A stretch of 64,000 nucleotides of DNA from a virus. Shown here one piece after another: positions 8,199 to 36,336 of the stretch (its first letter is position 1; the number at the start of each line of letters is the position of its first letter). Below the pieces are notes generated by a model. That model saw only the letters and a program-made list of their open reading frames with translations, did no database searches and was not told the origin of the DNA. Where the stretch lies: the IMG/VR virus record IMGVR_UViG_3300050120_000210, positions 1 to 64,000 of that record. The stretch is one strand, 5' to 3'. Both the position numbers and the translations under genes were made by a program.

Positions 8199-8205
8199 GT
8201 TTTCG

Positions 8206-8233
8206 TTGACGAAAACCAGTATTGCAGTAAGGT
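8206..8233 (+). promoter_or_regulatory. Early-type promoter
   Basis: TTGACG at 8206-8211, a 16-bp spacer and TAAGGT at 8228-8233. The -35 box lies in the recurring TCGTTGAC motif of this phage. It precedes the small-gene operon that starts at 8278. Confidence 0.6.
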
Positions 8234-12141: not shown

Positions 12142-12221
12142 TCTCGTAAACGAATTGCAATTACGGTGAGATGCTCCTAATATGGGGGTCTCAGACTTGA
12201 CGGCGTGGGAGTCTCTAGCAC

Positions 12222-12352
12222 GCAGGAATGGTGGAATTTGGGCATACACAGGGGTGTGGGTAAGGACCCTCACTTCGGTTGGGAAACGCGGGCGACCGCC
12301 TCCCGGCTGCCTAACATGCGGGTGTTTGCTGGTTCGAATCCAGCTTCGTGAT
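12222..12352 (+). tRNA. tRNA-like element, enlarged or degenerate
   Basis: The 3' part has a perfect T arm at 12328-12344 (GCTGG/CCAGC around TTCGAAT) and a 7-base acceptor-like strand. A D-arm-like segment (TGGTGGAATTTGGGCATACA) lies at 12229-12248, as in class II tRNAs. An anticodon-like hairpin GGGGT/ACCCT at 12251-12270 contains GTA, but its loop is 10 bases rather than 7. A second hairpin with loop CTAACAT is at 12307-12321. About 55 extra bases separate it from the T arm, and the acceptor pairs at only 5 of 7 positions. It may be a decayed or interrupted tRNA gene. Confidence 0.4.
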
Positions 12353-12397
12353 TGGCATGTGAGTGTCGGAGTGACGCCCGGCTCAAGGATGAGAACT

Positions 12398-12724
12398 ATG
12401 GTGGCGAAAACCTACGACCCGAAAACTATGGCGCTCGCTGCCGAATATCCCTTTGAGGTGATGGTGCAATCTAGCACCGATCCTGTCGGGTCGCGGCAAG
12501 GGTTCGGCGTGAAGCTGGGAGTTTCGAGCCGTGGTTCGGGCAAAGTCAACGATAGCGGGTTCGATAATGCCGTTAGAGAAATGATGGACTGGTGTAACGA
12601 GAATTGCGTTTTCTTCTGGATGCTGGGGCCGGTTCTTCCGATCAAAGTGTTCGAGACGTGGACATACAATTTCGCCTTCGTAGACGAACAAGACGCGATG
12701 TTTTTTAAGCTGCGGTGGCAATGA
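12398..12724 (+). CDS. Accessory protein containing a copied gp21 segment
   Basis: 108 residues from the ATG at 12398 with AAGGA upstream. It ends in FAFVDEQDAMFFKLRWQ, the C-terminal signature of a small paralogous family in this phage. Residues 36-53 (about 12505-12558) are nearly identical in DNA and protein to part of the gp21 protease gene at 26342-26395, including VKLGVSSRGSG. The stop overlaps the TyrRS start (ATGA). No function is known. Confidence 0.65.
   Translation: MVAKTYDPKTMALAAEYPFEVMVQSSTDPVGSRQGFGVKLGVSSRGSGKVNDSGFDNAVREMMDWCNENCVFFWMLGPVLPIKVFETWTYNFAFVDEQDAMFFKLRWQ
12505..12558 (+). repeat. 54-bp duplication of gp21 protease gene sequence (copy 1)
   Basis: 53 of 54 bases match 26342-26395, the single difference being at 12544. 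The reading frame is the same in both copies. The second copy lies in the gp21 gene and covers its GVSSRG motif. Confidence 0.9.
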
Positions 12725-17260: not shown

Positions 17261-17664
17261 CAGACAAATATTGGATCGTCACGCACGAAGTCCATCCGCC
17301 GCAGTATGCCCTACATGGTTCCGTGGCTCGGCCGGGCATGGCGATATCCGCAGAAGACCCGGTGTCTCATTTCGATAAGATGGTTGACGACATTCGTCTT
17401 GACGCTCATCGCCTTTCGGGTATCAGTCCAACGTTCGTAGATTTCGTAGCCAAGTCTCGTAACATGAAAGATGTTACCTTGCGATGGTGTCTGTTCGATG
17501 GCACTTCGGCATTGGCTTTTGCTATGCTTGTCAGCGGAAAGATAACAGAGCGGGACTGGCCGATAGCTATCGATGAACTGTCAGATGAAGAAAAACTCGT
17601 GGCTTTCTTCGACGTGGTGGTTTCGAACATGTGGACTGAGATAGTGGGGTCTGTGGGTGGATAA
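17257..17664 (+). CDS. Hypothetical protein
   Basis: 135 residues from a GTG overlapping the upstream stop. Mixed alpha/beta, no recognisable motif. It overlaps the Nudix gene by 8 bases, so the two are probably co-translated. Confidence 0.6.
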   Translation: MTDKYWIVTHEVHPPQYALHGSVARPGMAISAEDPVSHFDKMVDDIRLDAHRLSGISPTFVDFVAKSRNMKDVTLRWCLFDGTSALAFAMLVSGKITERDWPIAIDELSDEEKLVAFFDVVVSNMWTEIVGSVGG

Positions 17665-18175
17665 GTTTTGTAAGTTCTGCGGCGTGGTGCATAGCGCCCC
17701 AGAGTATCCGAAGACATGCACAGCGTGTGAGCAGATCACATACGTCAATCCGACACCGGTTGCCGTGTTGCTTCAGCCGGTCACGGGTGCGGATGGGCGG
17801 TTCTCCGGTATCATCGTCGGCAAGCGCGGCATTGAACCCGGCAAGGGCGAATATGGCCTACCGGGTGGCTTCATCGACTGTGGCGATGTGGATGTGATCG
17901 AAGGTGCAAGGCGTGAATTCTGGGAAGAACTCGGCGTCACGGCGCCGCCCGCCAATCGCATGAGCCTCTTCTGGTCGTTCTCGAACACTCGCCAACTGTT
18001 GCTGTTTGTGCGCTCACACCTGACTCTGGACGAAGCCGAAGTCATGGCCGGGTTTACCCCCAACTTCGAATGCCCGGAAATCAGGATCGCCCGCAAGCCG
18101 GAGGCTTTGTGCTTCCCGTCACACACGCGGGCGCTGGCGATGTATTTCGACTGGTTCAACCAGCCCGGCGACTAA
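17657..18175 (+). CDS. Nudix hydrolase with N-terminal zinc ribbon
   Basis: 172 residues from a GTG at 17657. A CKFC...CTAC zinc ribbon (Cys 5, 8, 21, 24) precedes a Nudix fold. The Nudix box GGFIDCGDVD...ARREFWEELGV is near residues 75-99. The zinc ribbon plus Nudix layout is like NudC-type NADH pyrophosphatases and ADP-ribose pyrophosphatases. It could hydrolyse a nucleoside diphosphate derivative such as NADH, ADP-ribose or an RNA cap. Substrate not determinable by eye. Confidence 0.85.
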   Translation: MDKFCKFCGVVHSAPEYPKTCTACEQITYVNPTPVAVLLQPVTGADGRFSGIIVGKRGIEPGKGEYGLPGGFIDCGDVDVIEGARREFWEELGVTAPPANRMSLFWSFSNTRQLLLFVRSHLTLDEAEVMAGFTPNFECPEIRIARKPEALCFPSHTRALAMYFDWFNQPGD

Positions 18176-18176
18176 C

Positions 18177-18392
18177 ATGAACAGAGAAAAAGCCTACGCC
18201 AATCGCGCCACGTTGGATCGGAAGAACCTTGAGCAACTGTATCAAGGTCTCTTAGACGAACTGGTCAACTACAAGCGCGCGGTGGCGAACTATCCGCCCG
18301 ACCGTATGATGAAATACGGCACGCCGTTCATGAACAAAATAGAAGCACGCATCGGGGAAGTCGAACGACTACTCACGACCACCGAAGTTTGA
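18177..18392 (+). CDS. Small helical protein
   Basis: 71 residues, predicted all helical (coiled-coil-like LDRKNLEQLYQGLLDELVNYK). It starts 1 base after the Nudix stop. Its 3' end overlaps the convergent gene ending at 18373 by 20 bases. Function unknown. Confidence 0.55.
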   Translation: MNREKAYANRATLDRKNLEQLYQGLLDELVNYKRAVANYPPDRMMKYGTPFMNKIEARIGEVERLLTTTEV

Positions 18393-18696
18393 AGTGGAGT
18401 GCTTCGTGAACATCTTCGAACACGAAGCCCGTGGTTCCCAATTTCCATTGACCGTGTAGCTCTTCGACGATCCAGATGATCCGGTCGCCAAGAGCGTTTG
18501 GCTTGACGTGCCGTGGCAATCCCACAGTGCTTCCTTCCAACGTTTCCGACCAACGATCCAGATCAGCTAGGCGCGGCTTTCCTTGAAGCCACCCCGGCCG
18601 ATCCTCTCGCAGACCGATTCGAAGTAGGATCGTGTTGACGTTGTGAAGATAGGAGCCAAAATACTCCACCATCTCGCAAGCGTTATCCACGTTCAT
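18373..18696 (-). CDS. Accessory protein, FExxxxALHFKLRW family
   Basis: 107 residues from the ATG at 18696, which overlaps the stop of the gp51-like gene (ATGA). It ends in TGFVFEDVHEALHFKLRWS, the signature shared with products at 12398, 36343, 36624 and 36848. Although this looks like an accessory family, the gene sits at the end of the baseplate hub operon. Function unknown. Confidence 0.65.
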   Translation of the reverse strand: MNVDNACEMVEYFGSYLHNVNTILLRIGLREDRPGWLQGKPRLADLDRWSETLEGSTVGLPRHVKPNALGDRIIWIVEELHGQWKLGTTGFVFEDVHEALHFKLRWS

Positions 18697-18965
18697 AGAA
18701 GCGGCAAGCCGTTCTTCTCGACCATCTTCACCCGTTCGTCGATCTGGCGAAGGATGCGTTTGCGTTCGTTGAAGCTCAGCGACCACGCCTCTTGACGAGA
18801 CAGGCTTCCCCGCATGTGCCACATGATAGAGTGGACATGGTCGATCAGTTCGTCAGTCTCAGCGCGGAAGCTGCCTAGAAGCTCCTGAAGCTCCCGAAGG
18901 TCTGTAATTCTCAGGAGCCGTTGTCGAAAAAACTTGTCGGATCGAACTCGATCTCCGGCGTCCAT
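18693..18965 (-). CDS. 51: Baseplate hub assembly protein, gp51-like
   Basis: About 90 residues from an ATG at 18965 inside the gp26 gene; a GTG at 18986 is also open, so the start is unsure. The C-terminal half (MRGSLSRQEAWSLSFNERK then DERVKMVEKNGLPLL) matches the short protein that follows gp26 in T4-like phages, where gp51 helps assemble the hub. The order gp26 then gp51 is as in T4. Confidence 0.7.
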   Translation of the reverse strand: MDAGDRVRSDKFFRQRLLRITDLRELQELLGSFRAETDELIDHVHSIMWHMRGSLSRQEAWSLSFNERKRILRQIDERVKMVEKNGLPLL

Positions 18966-19858
18966 TTGTGCTCGCACTTCGCGCACGCTGCATCAACGTG
19001 CTTGTCGATCCCGGCCGAGTTCAGTTCATCGAGTTTCTTTTCGATTTTCTTGACCCACGATTGCGACGTGTTGTTGATGAACTCCGAGATGTTGGCTCGG
19101 TCGGTCACAGCGCCGGTCGGCACTGCCACCGAGATCACGCACGACGAAATAGCGTCGATGTTGATCTTGCTCATTTTCCTGAAGCTCTCGTTCCGAGCAT
19201 CAGCCATGCGCTTGTTCGCGATTTCTTTCTCTTCAGCCGACGAACCGTCCTCGAAGAACACAGCAAGCTCGTCGGCCACGCCTTGCAGGCGTCGAGCCTC
19301 GTTGAAGCTCTCCATGGCTACCAGCGTGGCAGTTTCCAAGTTGTAGGGTCGAAGAGTGACGATGATGTCGTCGGACAGTCGAGCCTCGTTGACCGGATTG
19401 ATGAACGTCATGCGTCCCATCATCGACGGGAGGTGGCAATCGAACACGTTCTCATGCTTGCATTCCGGGCAGATGACTTCGACTTCCATGTTCTCACCGT
19501 AGGTCGCGGCGCGGATGGCGAGAAGGATCACATCGAGATCGGGCGTACTGATGAGGCGCGGGCGGCGGATTGAGGGAACGCACGAGCGAACCAGTTCTTC
19601 CAGAGCCATCCCGCTCATCAGAGCATCCGGTGAACGAAGCAGCAGTTCGTCGGCCGCCTTCATCGGGAAAACCGGTACGTCACCGGCTAGAGTCGGATCG
19701 TAATCTTCTTTCGGCAGAAAGGCTCCCCGCGTCGGCAACGGAACGTGCAATCCCGGCATACGGAAGTAGCCCGCCAGTGGGTTCGAGGAAGCAGCAACCG
19801 GGACGGGTCGGAACAGTTCGGCCTCATTGAAATCGTCTTCGGGAATCTGGTTGGTCAT
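18911..19858 (-). CDS. 26: Baseplate hub subunit, gp26-like
   Basis: 315 residues. Typical stretches of the T4-type baseplate hub family are YFRMPGLHVPLPTRGAF near 30, VFPMKAADELLLRSPDAL near 60 and PDLDVILLAIRAATYGE near 105. CPECKHEN near 135 and CAKCEHKW near 300 form a likely split zinc site. The protein is part of the central hub that joins the wedges and the tail tube. A late box CTAAATA lies about 35 bases upstream. Confidence 0.85.
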   Translation of the reverse strand: MTNQIPEDDFNEAELFRPVPVAASSNPLAGYFRMPGLHVPLPTRGAFLPKEDYDPTLAGDVPVFPMKAADELLLRSPDALMSGMALEELVRSCVPSIRRPRLISTPDLDVILLAIRAATYGENMEVEVICPECKHENVFDCHLPSMMGRMTFINPVNEARLSDDIIVTLRPYNLETATLVAMESFNEARRLQGVADELAVFFEDGSSAEEKEIANKRMADARNESFRKMSKINIDAISSCVISVAVPTGAVTDRANISEFINNTSQSWVKKIEKKLDELNSAGIDKHVDAACAKCEHKWTPEIEFDPTSFFDNGS

Positions 19859-19890
19859 GTAATTTCCATCAAGAGTGAGTAATGTGCGAG

Positions 19891-19897
19891 TATTTAG
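19891..19897 (-). promoter_or_regulatory. Late promoter box CTAAATA
   Basis: On the minus strand CCTCTAAATACTCG lies about 35 bases before the gp26 start at 19858, with GGAAATTAC as ribosome-binding site. Confidence 0.65.
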
Positions 19898-24885: not shown

Positions 24886-24933
24886 CTTCACAGATGCTTG
24901 AGCGGCGTCGTAGCAATCATAGGGAGACTATCA

Positions 24934-25932
24934 ATGCGTTCTATTTTGGAAAAGGCTTTTGTTGCTCTGCTCAACGAAGAGCACGACAAAGCTGAAGAAC
25001 TGTTTCACAAGTTCATCGTCGAGCGGGCACGTCAGATTCACGAATCCAATCGTGCAGGCGACGATTACGTTCTGGACGAAAACTGGAACGACGAAATCAC
25101 GACCGAATCCTACTTCACCGAAGATGATCTGACCGACATCGAAGGCGAAGGCGAGGGTGAAGATCACGCCGAAGGCGGCGAAGAGATGGGCGGCGACGAG
25201 TTCGGTGCTGACGCTGCTGGTGAAGAACCGGCCGCAGACGAGTTCGGCGCTGAAGCCGGTGGCGAAGGCGACATGGACGGTATGGGCGAGCCCGACGAAC
25301 ATGCTGACGAAACCCCGGAAGAGCAGATCGAAGACCTGCGCGACCAACTCGAAAAGCTGACCGCAGAATTCGAAGCCATGATGGACGCCATCGGTGACGA
25401 AGGCGGCATGGACGACGGCGAAGACGCTGGTGAGTTCGGCGACGAGCCCAAGGACGATGAGTTCTCTGGCGCTGACGACACCGAAACCAACGACGAAATG
25501 GCCGACCACGTCGAAGACGACATGGACGACGCAGGCGAAAAGCCCGCCATGGAAAGCGACGAAGGCGACGAGGAATACGACGACATCACCGAGTCCATCA
25601 TTGATGAACTGGAAAAGGTCACTGTCTCCCTCGACGACGGCAAGGAAATCGGCACCGGCAAGGGTTTCACCCAGAACCGTGGCGCCGCCATCCCGCAGAA
25701 GAGCAAGGACGCCCGTCAGGGTGGTGCTCCGATCAAGGTGAAGCAAGACGCCCACAAGGGCTTCGAGCGTGAGACCGCCCCCGGCGTCGAAACCATGAAG
25801 CCCCGCCGCAACAACGTCTCCAAGGCCAACGCTGCTCTGAGCCGCGTGTCCAAGGAAGGCGACAAGTCGGCCGAGATCAACAAGCTGTCTTCGGAGAACG
25901 GCAACACCAAGTCGCCGCTCGAAGGTCAGTAA
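24934..25932 (+). CDS. 68: Prohead core protein, gp68-like, very acidic
   Basis: 332 residues from the ATG at 24934 with AGGGAGA upstream. The start MRSILEKAFVALLNEEHDKAEELFHKFIVERARQ is characteristic of gp68-type core proteins. Residues 60-215 are extremely Asp/Glu/Gly-rich, and the last 100 residues are basic and likely cleaved. It is expected in the internal core that shapes the prohead and is digested by gp21. Much longer than T4 gp68. Confidence 0.75.
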   Translation: MRSILEKAFVALLNEEHDKAEELFHKFIVERARQIHESNRAGDDYVLDENWNDEITTESYFTEDDLTDIEGEGEGEDHAEGGEEMGGDEFGADAAGEEPAADEFGAEAGGEGDMDGMGEPDEHADETPEEQIEDLRDQLEKLTAEFEAMMDAIGDEGGMDDGEDAGEFGDEPKDDEFSGADDTETNDEMADHVEDDMDDAGEKPAMESDEGDEEYDDITESIIDELEKVTVSLDDGKEIGTGKGFTQNRGAAIPQKSKDARQGGAPIKVKQDAHKGFERETAPGVETMKPRRNNVSKANAALSRVSKEGDKSAEINKLSSENGNTKSPLEGQ

Positions 25933-25964: not shown

Positions 25965-26600
25965 ATGTCCATGTTTCTTTCTGAACGTCTGACTTTCGAC
26001 CAAGCCCAGATCATCGTTGAATCGATGAACGAGGGTGAGGGCGATAACGCCAAGAAGAAACTGTTCATGTCCGGTGTCTTTATTCAGGGCGGCGTTCGCA
26101 ACCTGAACCAGCGTGTCTATCCCGTCCGTGAAATCTCAAAGGCTGTTGAAAACGTCAACGACATCCTCACCAAAGGTGAGAGTGTTCTTGGTGAACTCGA
26201 CCATCCCGAAGAACTGACGATCAATCTCGACCGTGTTTCCCACATGATTACTAAGATGTGGATGGACGGCAATACTGGGATGGGCAAGCTGCAAATTCTC
26301 CCGACCCCGCTCGGAGAAATCACCCGCACGTTGCTGGAAAGCGGCGTGAAGCTGGGAGTTTCGAGCCGTGGTTCGGGCAACGTCAACGATAGCGGCGAAG
26401 TCTCGGACTTCGAAATTATTACTGTCGATATCGTTGCACGCCCCAGCGCCCCCAATGCCTACCCGAAGCCGGTCTACGAAGCACGTAACAGTCGTCGTGG
26501 CGCCGTCATCGAAGACCTCGCCCGAGCGGTGTCGAATGATCCCAAGGCACAGAAGCATCTCCACAAGGAGCTTCTGACGTGGATCAACAACCTAAAGTAA
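25965..26600 (+). CDS. 21: Prohead core protease gp21
   Basis: 211 residues, nearly the T4 length. It has the early SGVFIQGGVRNLNQRVYP block and LGELDHPEELTINLDRVSH with the putative catalytic His. The serine protease motif LGVSSRGSG lies near 129-137, followed by a VSDFEIITVDIVARPS block. It matures the prohead by digesting scaffold and trimming capsid. Part of this gene (26342-26395) has a near-identical copy at 12505-12558. Confidence 0.92.
   Translation: MSMFLSERLTFDQAQIIVESMNEGEGDNAKKKLFMSGVFIQGGVRNLNQRVYPVREISKAVENVNDILTKGESVLGELDHPEELTINLDRVSHMITKMWMDGNTGMGKLQILPTPLGEITRTLLESGVKLGVSSRGSGNVNDSGEVSDFEIITVDIVARPSAPNAYPKPVYEARNSRRGAVIEDLARAVSNDPKAQKHLHKELLTWINNLK
26342..26395 (+). repeat. 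54-bp repeat within gp21 (copy 2, likely parent)
   Basis: Encodes residues around GVSSRG in the gp21 protease. 53 of 54 bases are identical to 12505-12558 and in the same frame. This copy lies in a conserved gene, so it is the probable source. Confidence 0.9.
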
Positions 26601-36308: not shown

Positions 36309-36336
36309 TTGACGAGATCGGAAAAATTGGCTAGAG
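36309..36336 (+). promoter_or_regulatory. Early-type promoter
   Basis: TTGACG at 36309-36314 in ATTTCGTTGACGAGAT, a 16-bp spacer, then CTAGAG (36331-36336). Drives two small accessory genes embedded in the late minus-strand region. Confidence 0.6.

Follow-up and report, generated by a model that had tools for sequence, protein, structure and literature searches.

In phage T4, recombination between homologies of 2-10 bp is frequent (PMC9391042), and UvsX together with Dda takes part in template switching (PMC3016280); for T4-related phages, ectopic insertion via invading 3' ends has been proposed (PMC2993671). The locus described here would share with the T4 cases (PMC9391042; PMC3016280) homologies of 2-10 bp, an intragenomic setting and a context of replication or break repair, but the T4 cases are segmental amplifications and deletions, whereas here a 50-nt piece of one gene has a copy in another gene at a distance of 14 kb. 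With the templated insertions and MMBIR of eukaryotes (PMC8421209; PMC2621351), the locus would have in common a short copied donor, microhomology at the junctions and a donor that stays intact; the eukaryotic cases involve other replication and repair enzymes and many events, in contrast to the single scar of this phage. As for the protein encoded by the copied piece, the counterpart is the prohead protease gp21 of T4 (Peptidase_S77; PDB 5jbl), whose Ser-motif segment is encoded by the insert; gp21 is known to cut after L/I-x-E motifs (PMC9026906).

The DNA analysed, here called the window, is a stretch of 64,000 bp from a virus record of 149,124 bp. It was compared with L003 (IMG/VR contig IMGVR_UViG_3300009177_000068), which has the same order of conserved leader, accessory ORF and tyrosyl-tRNA synthetase (TyrRS) gene. 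The features are as follows:

12398..12724, + strand: accessory gene (108 aa) that received the insert, ATG at 12398 and TGA at 12722-12724
12480..12499, + strand: rest of the loop that is absent from L003
12500-12506, + strand: GGGTTCG, left copy of the 7-bp direct repeat on the two sides of the insert
12506..12558, + strand: copy of the gp21 active-site segment, 52/53 identical (C12505 matches too, giving 53/54)
12557-12563, + strand: right 7-bp direct repeat GGGTTCG, with a period of 57 bp, or 19 codons
12721..13947, + strand: TyrRS gene (PF00579, E 4.1e-70), directly downstream of the accessory gene
25965..26600, + strand: gp21-type prohead protease (Peptidase_S77), 211 aa, the donor gene
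26343..26395, + strand: donor segment inside gp21, coding GVKLGVSSRGSGNVNDS, whose motif corresponds in the alignment to the serine region of T4 gp21
L003:3001-3240: accessory orthologue, 79 aa, against 108 aa in the window

Diagonal comparison of the 64-kb window confirmed what the first-pass annotation had reported, namely that 53 of 54 bases of gp21 (26342-26395) recur in the accessory gene (12505-12558) between unrelated flanks; identity drops sharply to chance level beyond both limits of the match. The one mismatch is A12544 in the copy versus C26381 in gp21, which turns an Asn codon (AAC) into a Lys codon (AAA). This pair is the sole exact repeat of at least 18 bp on either strand of the window, and no direct repeat in all 149,124 bp of the record is longer than its 39-bp exact core, the next ones measuring 22, 21 and 20 bp; a search of the same record located the gp21 piece at these two places only. 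Among inverted repeats, the longest measures 19 bp; it is TTTTCGTTGACGAAAACCA, present at window 8200-8218 and at record 81748-81766 with 73 kb in between, and it may be a promoter-like element.

Among the 33 related phage loci (527 kb), four exact repeats of at least 24 bp lying more than 300 bp apart were found; the one in Sinorhizobium phage Phosso comes from scaffold paralogues arranged in tandem, and a further two resemble acidic low-complexity repeats. Because there are only four such repeats in 527 kb, an isolated copy is uncommon among these phages. The Phosso genes concerned (17602-18597 and 18664-19896 of locus L087) are adjacent, lie just upstream of gp21 and are diverged tandem paralogues of an acidic scaffold-like protein, of which the window has one (24898-25932).

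The donor matches Pfam PF03420 (E 1e-27), phrog_207 (E 3.7e-59) and the T4 gp21 structure 5jbl (E 3.6e-16). As for polarity, every relative has an intact, conserved gp21, which is therefore the donor. Its closest relative, from locus L004, has 97% protein identity and differs at 36 of 636 bases, with third positions 13% different. Within the 54-bp stretch, three sites differ between L004 and the gp21 of the window, and at each of these the accessory copy agrees with the window gp21; at two of them, in the codons GGA and TCG, the window state also differs from L006 and L007, and these states were probably derived in the lineage of this phage. Since the copy shares these derived bases, it is younger than the split from L004. 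The Asn that became Lys in the copy is invariant in nine gp21 homologues, so that AAA arose for AAC in the copy, after the transfer.

As for the recipient, its protein belongs to a group of small proteins with a C-terminal FK[LM]RW motif; its host part could be placed in no family of Pfam or PHROGs, and its AlphaFold model, with a mean pLDDT of 35.7, is uninformative. About 10 small paralogous ORFs that end in F-x-F-x4-[DE]A-x2-FK[LM]-x-[WF] are spread across the record, at 36313, 36591 and 18852 (minus strand) of the window and in L090 and L092, which are record 64001-84000 and 104001-124000. The gp21 piece is absent from the record's other small ORFs with an F-x5-F-K-[LM]-x-[WF] tail; that the other family members lack it, as first annotated, holds for these paralogues and for the L003 orthologue. 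No relative of the accessory protein besides that of L003 was found among IMG/VR contigs, the annotated phage collection (GenBank phages) held no related accessory gene, and a C-terminal motif scan found no accessory gene upstream of the TyrRS relatives L096-L103.

The accessory proteins of L003 and the window align end to end, save that L003 lacks 29 residues, the gp21 piece among them. Two marks of templated insertion are present, an intact donor elsewhere in the genome and, in L003, an empty site in a relative with conserved flanks. No other IMG/VR contig matched a 26-bp core of the piece, and the search for the same insert in related phages gave no further carrier. In its simplest reading, the scar would be an insertion of 57 bp (19 codons) with a 7-bp target duplication. 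Before this duplication, the site would have read ...GCGGCAAGGGTTCGATAATGCC... uninterrupted, a sequence that we infer because L003 is the only accessory orthologue found. A simulation of 40,000 plain insertions, each placing a random 53-mer in this genome, gave a flush repeat of at least 7 bp around the insert in 0.115% of cases (P 0.00115). The significance of the 7-bp repeat GGGTTCG is moderate. The microhomology at the junctions, as read from the sequence, is 2 nt at each (CG into gp21, GG on return) and lies within chance.

The empty site of L003, the shared derived bases and the near identity of the two segments support what was first proposed, a recent recombination, here an ectopic or gene-conversion-like transfer of gp21 sequence to the accessory gene; the insertion is real, recent and uncommon. 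We favor, with a probability of about 0.75, a single recent ectopic templated insertion that arose by template switching or microhomology-mediated repair during recombination-linked replication or break repair, and that has no function. By this route, a 3' end growing at ~12506 in the accessory gene would have switched to gp21, in the same genome or in a sister copy, 14 kb away, via ~2 nt of microhomology (CG); ~50 nt of gp21 would then have been copied before the end moved back, by way of a second 2-nt match (GG), to a point in the accessory gene 7 nt upstream of its exit. The locus would thereby gain 57 bp and carry GGGTTCG on either side. Neither a RecA-type recombinase (PF00154) nor UvsX was found in the record, which is incomplete for a jumbo phage.

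Alternatively, a staggered double-strand break in the accessory gene, of the kind that a homing or restriction endonuclease makes, might have been filled in with capture of a gp21 fragment. A flush target duplication is the product expected of staggered-end fill-in, so that such a capture would leave the same scar, and T4-like phages often carry homing endonucleases (PMC2993671); however, of the two families searched, HNH_3 and GIY-YIG, neither was found in the 149-kb record, and a microhomology of ~2 nt at each junction fits template switching at least as well. We consider break capture unlikely. Separately, a transposon, homing intron or intein was considered and rejected: the 57 bp have no coding capacity of their own, reading them revealed no evident terminal inverted repeats, and the record has no HNH_3 or GIY-YIG endonuclease.

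The sequence comes from a single metagenomic record, and a chimera of assembly or amplification was considered. A chimera at a 53-bp repeat is not expected to enter and exit within one ORF with the frame kept, nor to bring a private substitution, a 7-bp duplication and an unrelated loop sequence into the copy, and the sequence to either side follows the same order as in L003, which it matches. Given this junction structure, an assembly artefact is very unlikely.

The loop just mentioned, ~30 bp near 12480-12505, lies beyond the 57-bp insert and is absent from L003. No source for it was found in the 149-kb record, where the best match, 21/30, is near chance by a hand estimate for a search of this size. 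It may be a length difference that predates the insertion, or else a further part of an event more complex than the one described here.

Regarding the reading frame, the piece is read in the accessory gene in the frame of gp21, as the first-pass annotation stated, but this conservation does not serve as an argument for function. Read forward, the 53-bp piece is free of stops in the gp21 frame alone, and because the other two frames contain stops the kept frame is no evidence of function. In addition, the stop codon of the accessory gene overlaps the start of the TyrRS gene (ATGA) in both the window phage and L003, which suggests that the two genes are translationally coupled. Only in-frame insertions should survive next to such an overlap, since one out of frame would cut the accessory protein short and probably upset TyrRS expression. 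An insertion that is in frame and stop-free is thus the only one that could ever be observed at this site, and the kept frame is silent on function. The templated insertion would have been tolerated because it added exactly 19 codons in the only stop-free forward frame, fell where the length of this small accessory protein varies, and left the TyrRS stop/start overlap intact. The flanking GGGTTCG repeat, the single open frame and the overlap are additions to what had been annotated.

The insert has also been interpreted as a protease decoy or as the mimic of a sensor target. In such a role, its gp21-like active-site strand would let the accessory protein bind or inhibit gp21, or would serve as bait for a host sensor of phage proteases. 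The piece surrounds the most conserved motif of gp21, in frame, and phrog_207 weakly matches the accessory product at residues 37-59, which are the insert itself (E 0.01). Yet the frame is forced, as set out above, and of the catalytic residues the insert has the Ser motif alone, with no Asp and no His (by alignment, H80 in the gp21 of this phage). Because the His and Asp of the triad are missing, protease activity of the accessory protein is excluded; the L/I-x-E cleavage motif of gp21 was not found in the insert, so that activity as a substrate decoy is unlikely as well. The sole change since copying alters a residue that is invariant in gp21, no other IMG/VR phage was found with the insert, and the L003 orthologue is without it. 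Functional mimicry is accordingly highly improbable, and of the earlier interpretation the recent recombination stands, whereas the decoy and mimic proposals do not. That the 19 added residues, even if picked up by chance, led the accessory protein to bind gp21 or a host factor that recognizes gp21, and are used by the phage to time or inhibit head maturation, is likewise highly improbable. The copied piece itself is best regarded as having no function.

As for a possible classification of the accessory protein as a Peptidase_S77 homologue, this was rejected: it has no Pfam S77 match and no His-Ser-Asp triad, and what it shares with gp21 is only 17 residues. Compared with gp21 itself (Peptidase_S77; PDB 5jbl), the insert amounts to 17 of 211 residues, with no His or Asp, and hence makes no protease.

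The insertion is most probably a mutational accident of a known kind with a well-preserved scar; for a natural ectopic templated insertion, here in a large phage of the T4-like type, the scar is unusually clean, and from it donor, recipient, empty site, polarity and target duplication can all be read. It illustrates that scraps of core genes can land inside fast-evolving accessory proteins, and that an in-frame motif common to unrelated phage proteins need not mean a common function.

Upstream of the accessory-TyrRS operon, a conserved leader of ~205 nt was observed in both phages (window 12189-12397; L003 2794-3000). It matched no Rfam family and gave no convincing tRNA or tmRNA. The two sequences available support 63 consensus pairs, four of which are changed on both sides; the ends of the leader pair with each other (ACTTGA/TCAAGG, CTCA/TGAG), burying the Shine-Dalgarno sequence of the accessory gene, and the leader contains a canonical T-arm-like hairpin, GCTGGTTCGAATCCAGC. 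By analogy with the thrS operator of E. coli, the comparison case for such an element, it is possibly a tRNA-mimic autoregulatory leader of the phage TyrRS.
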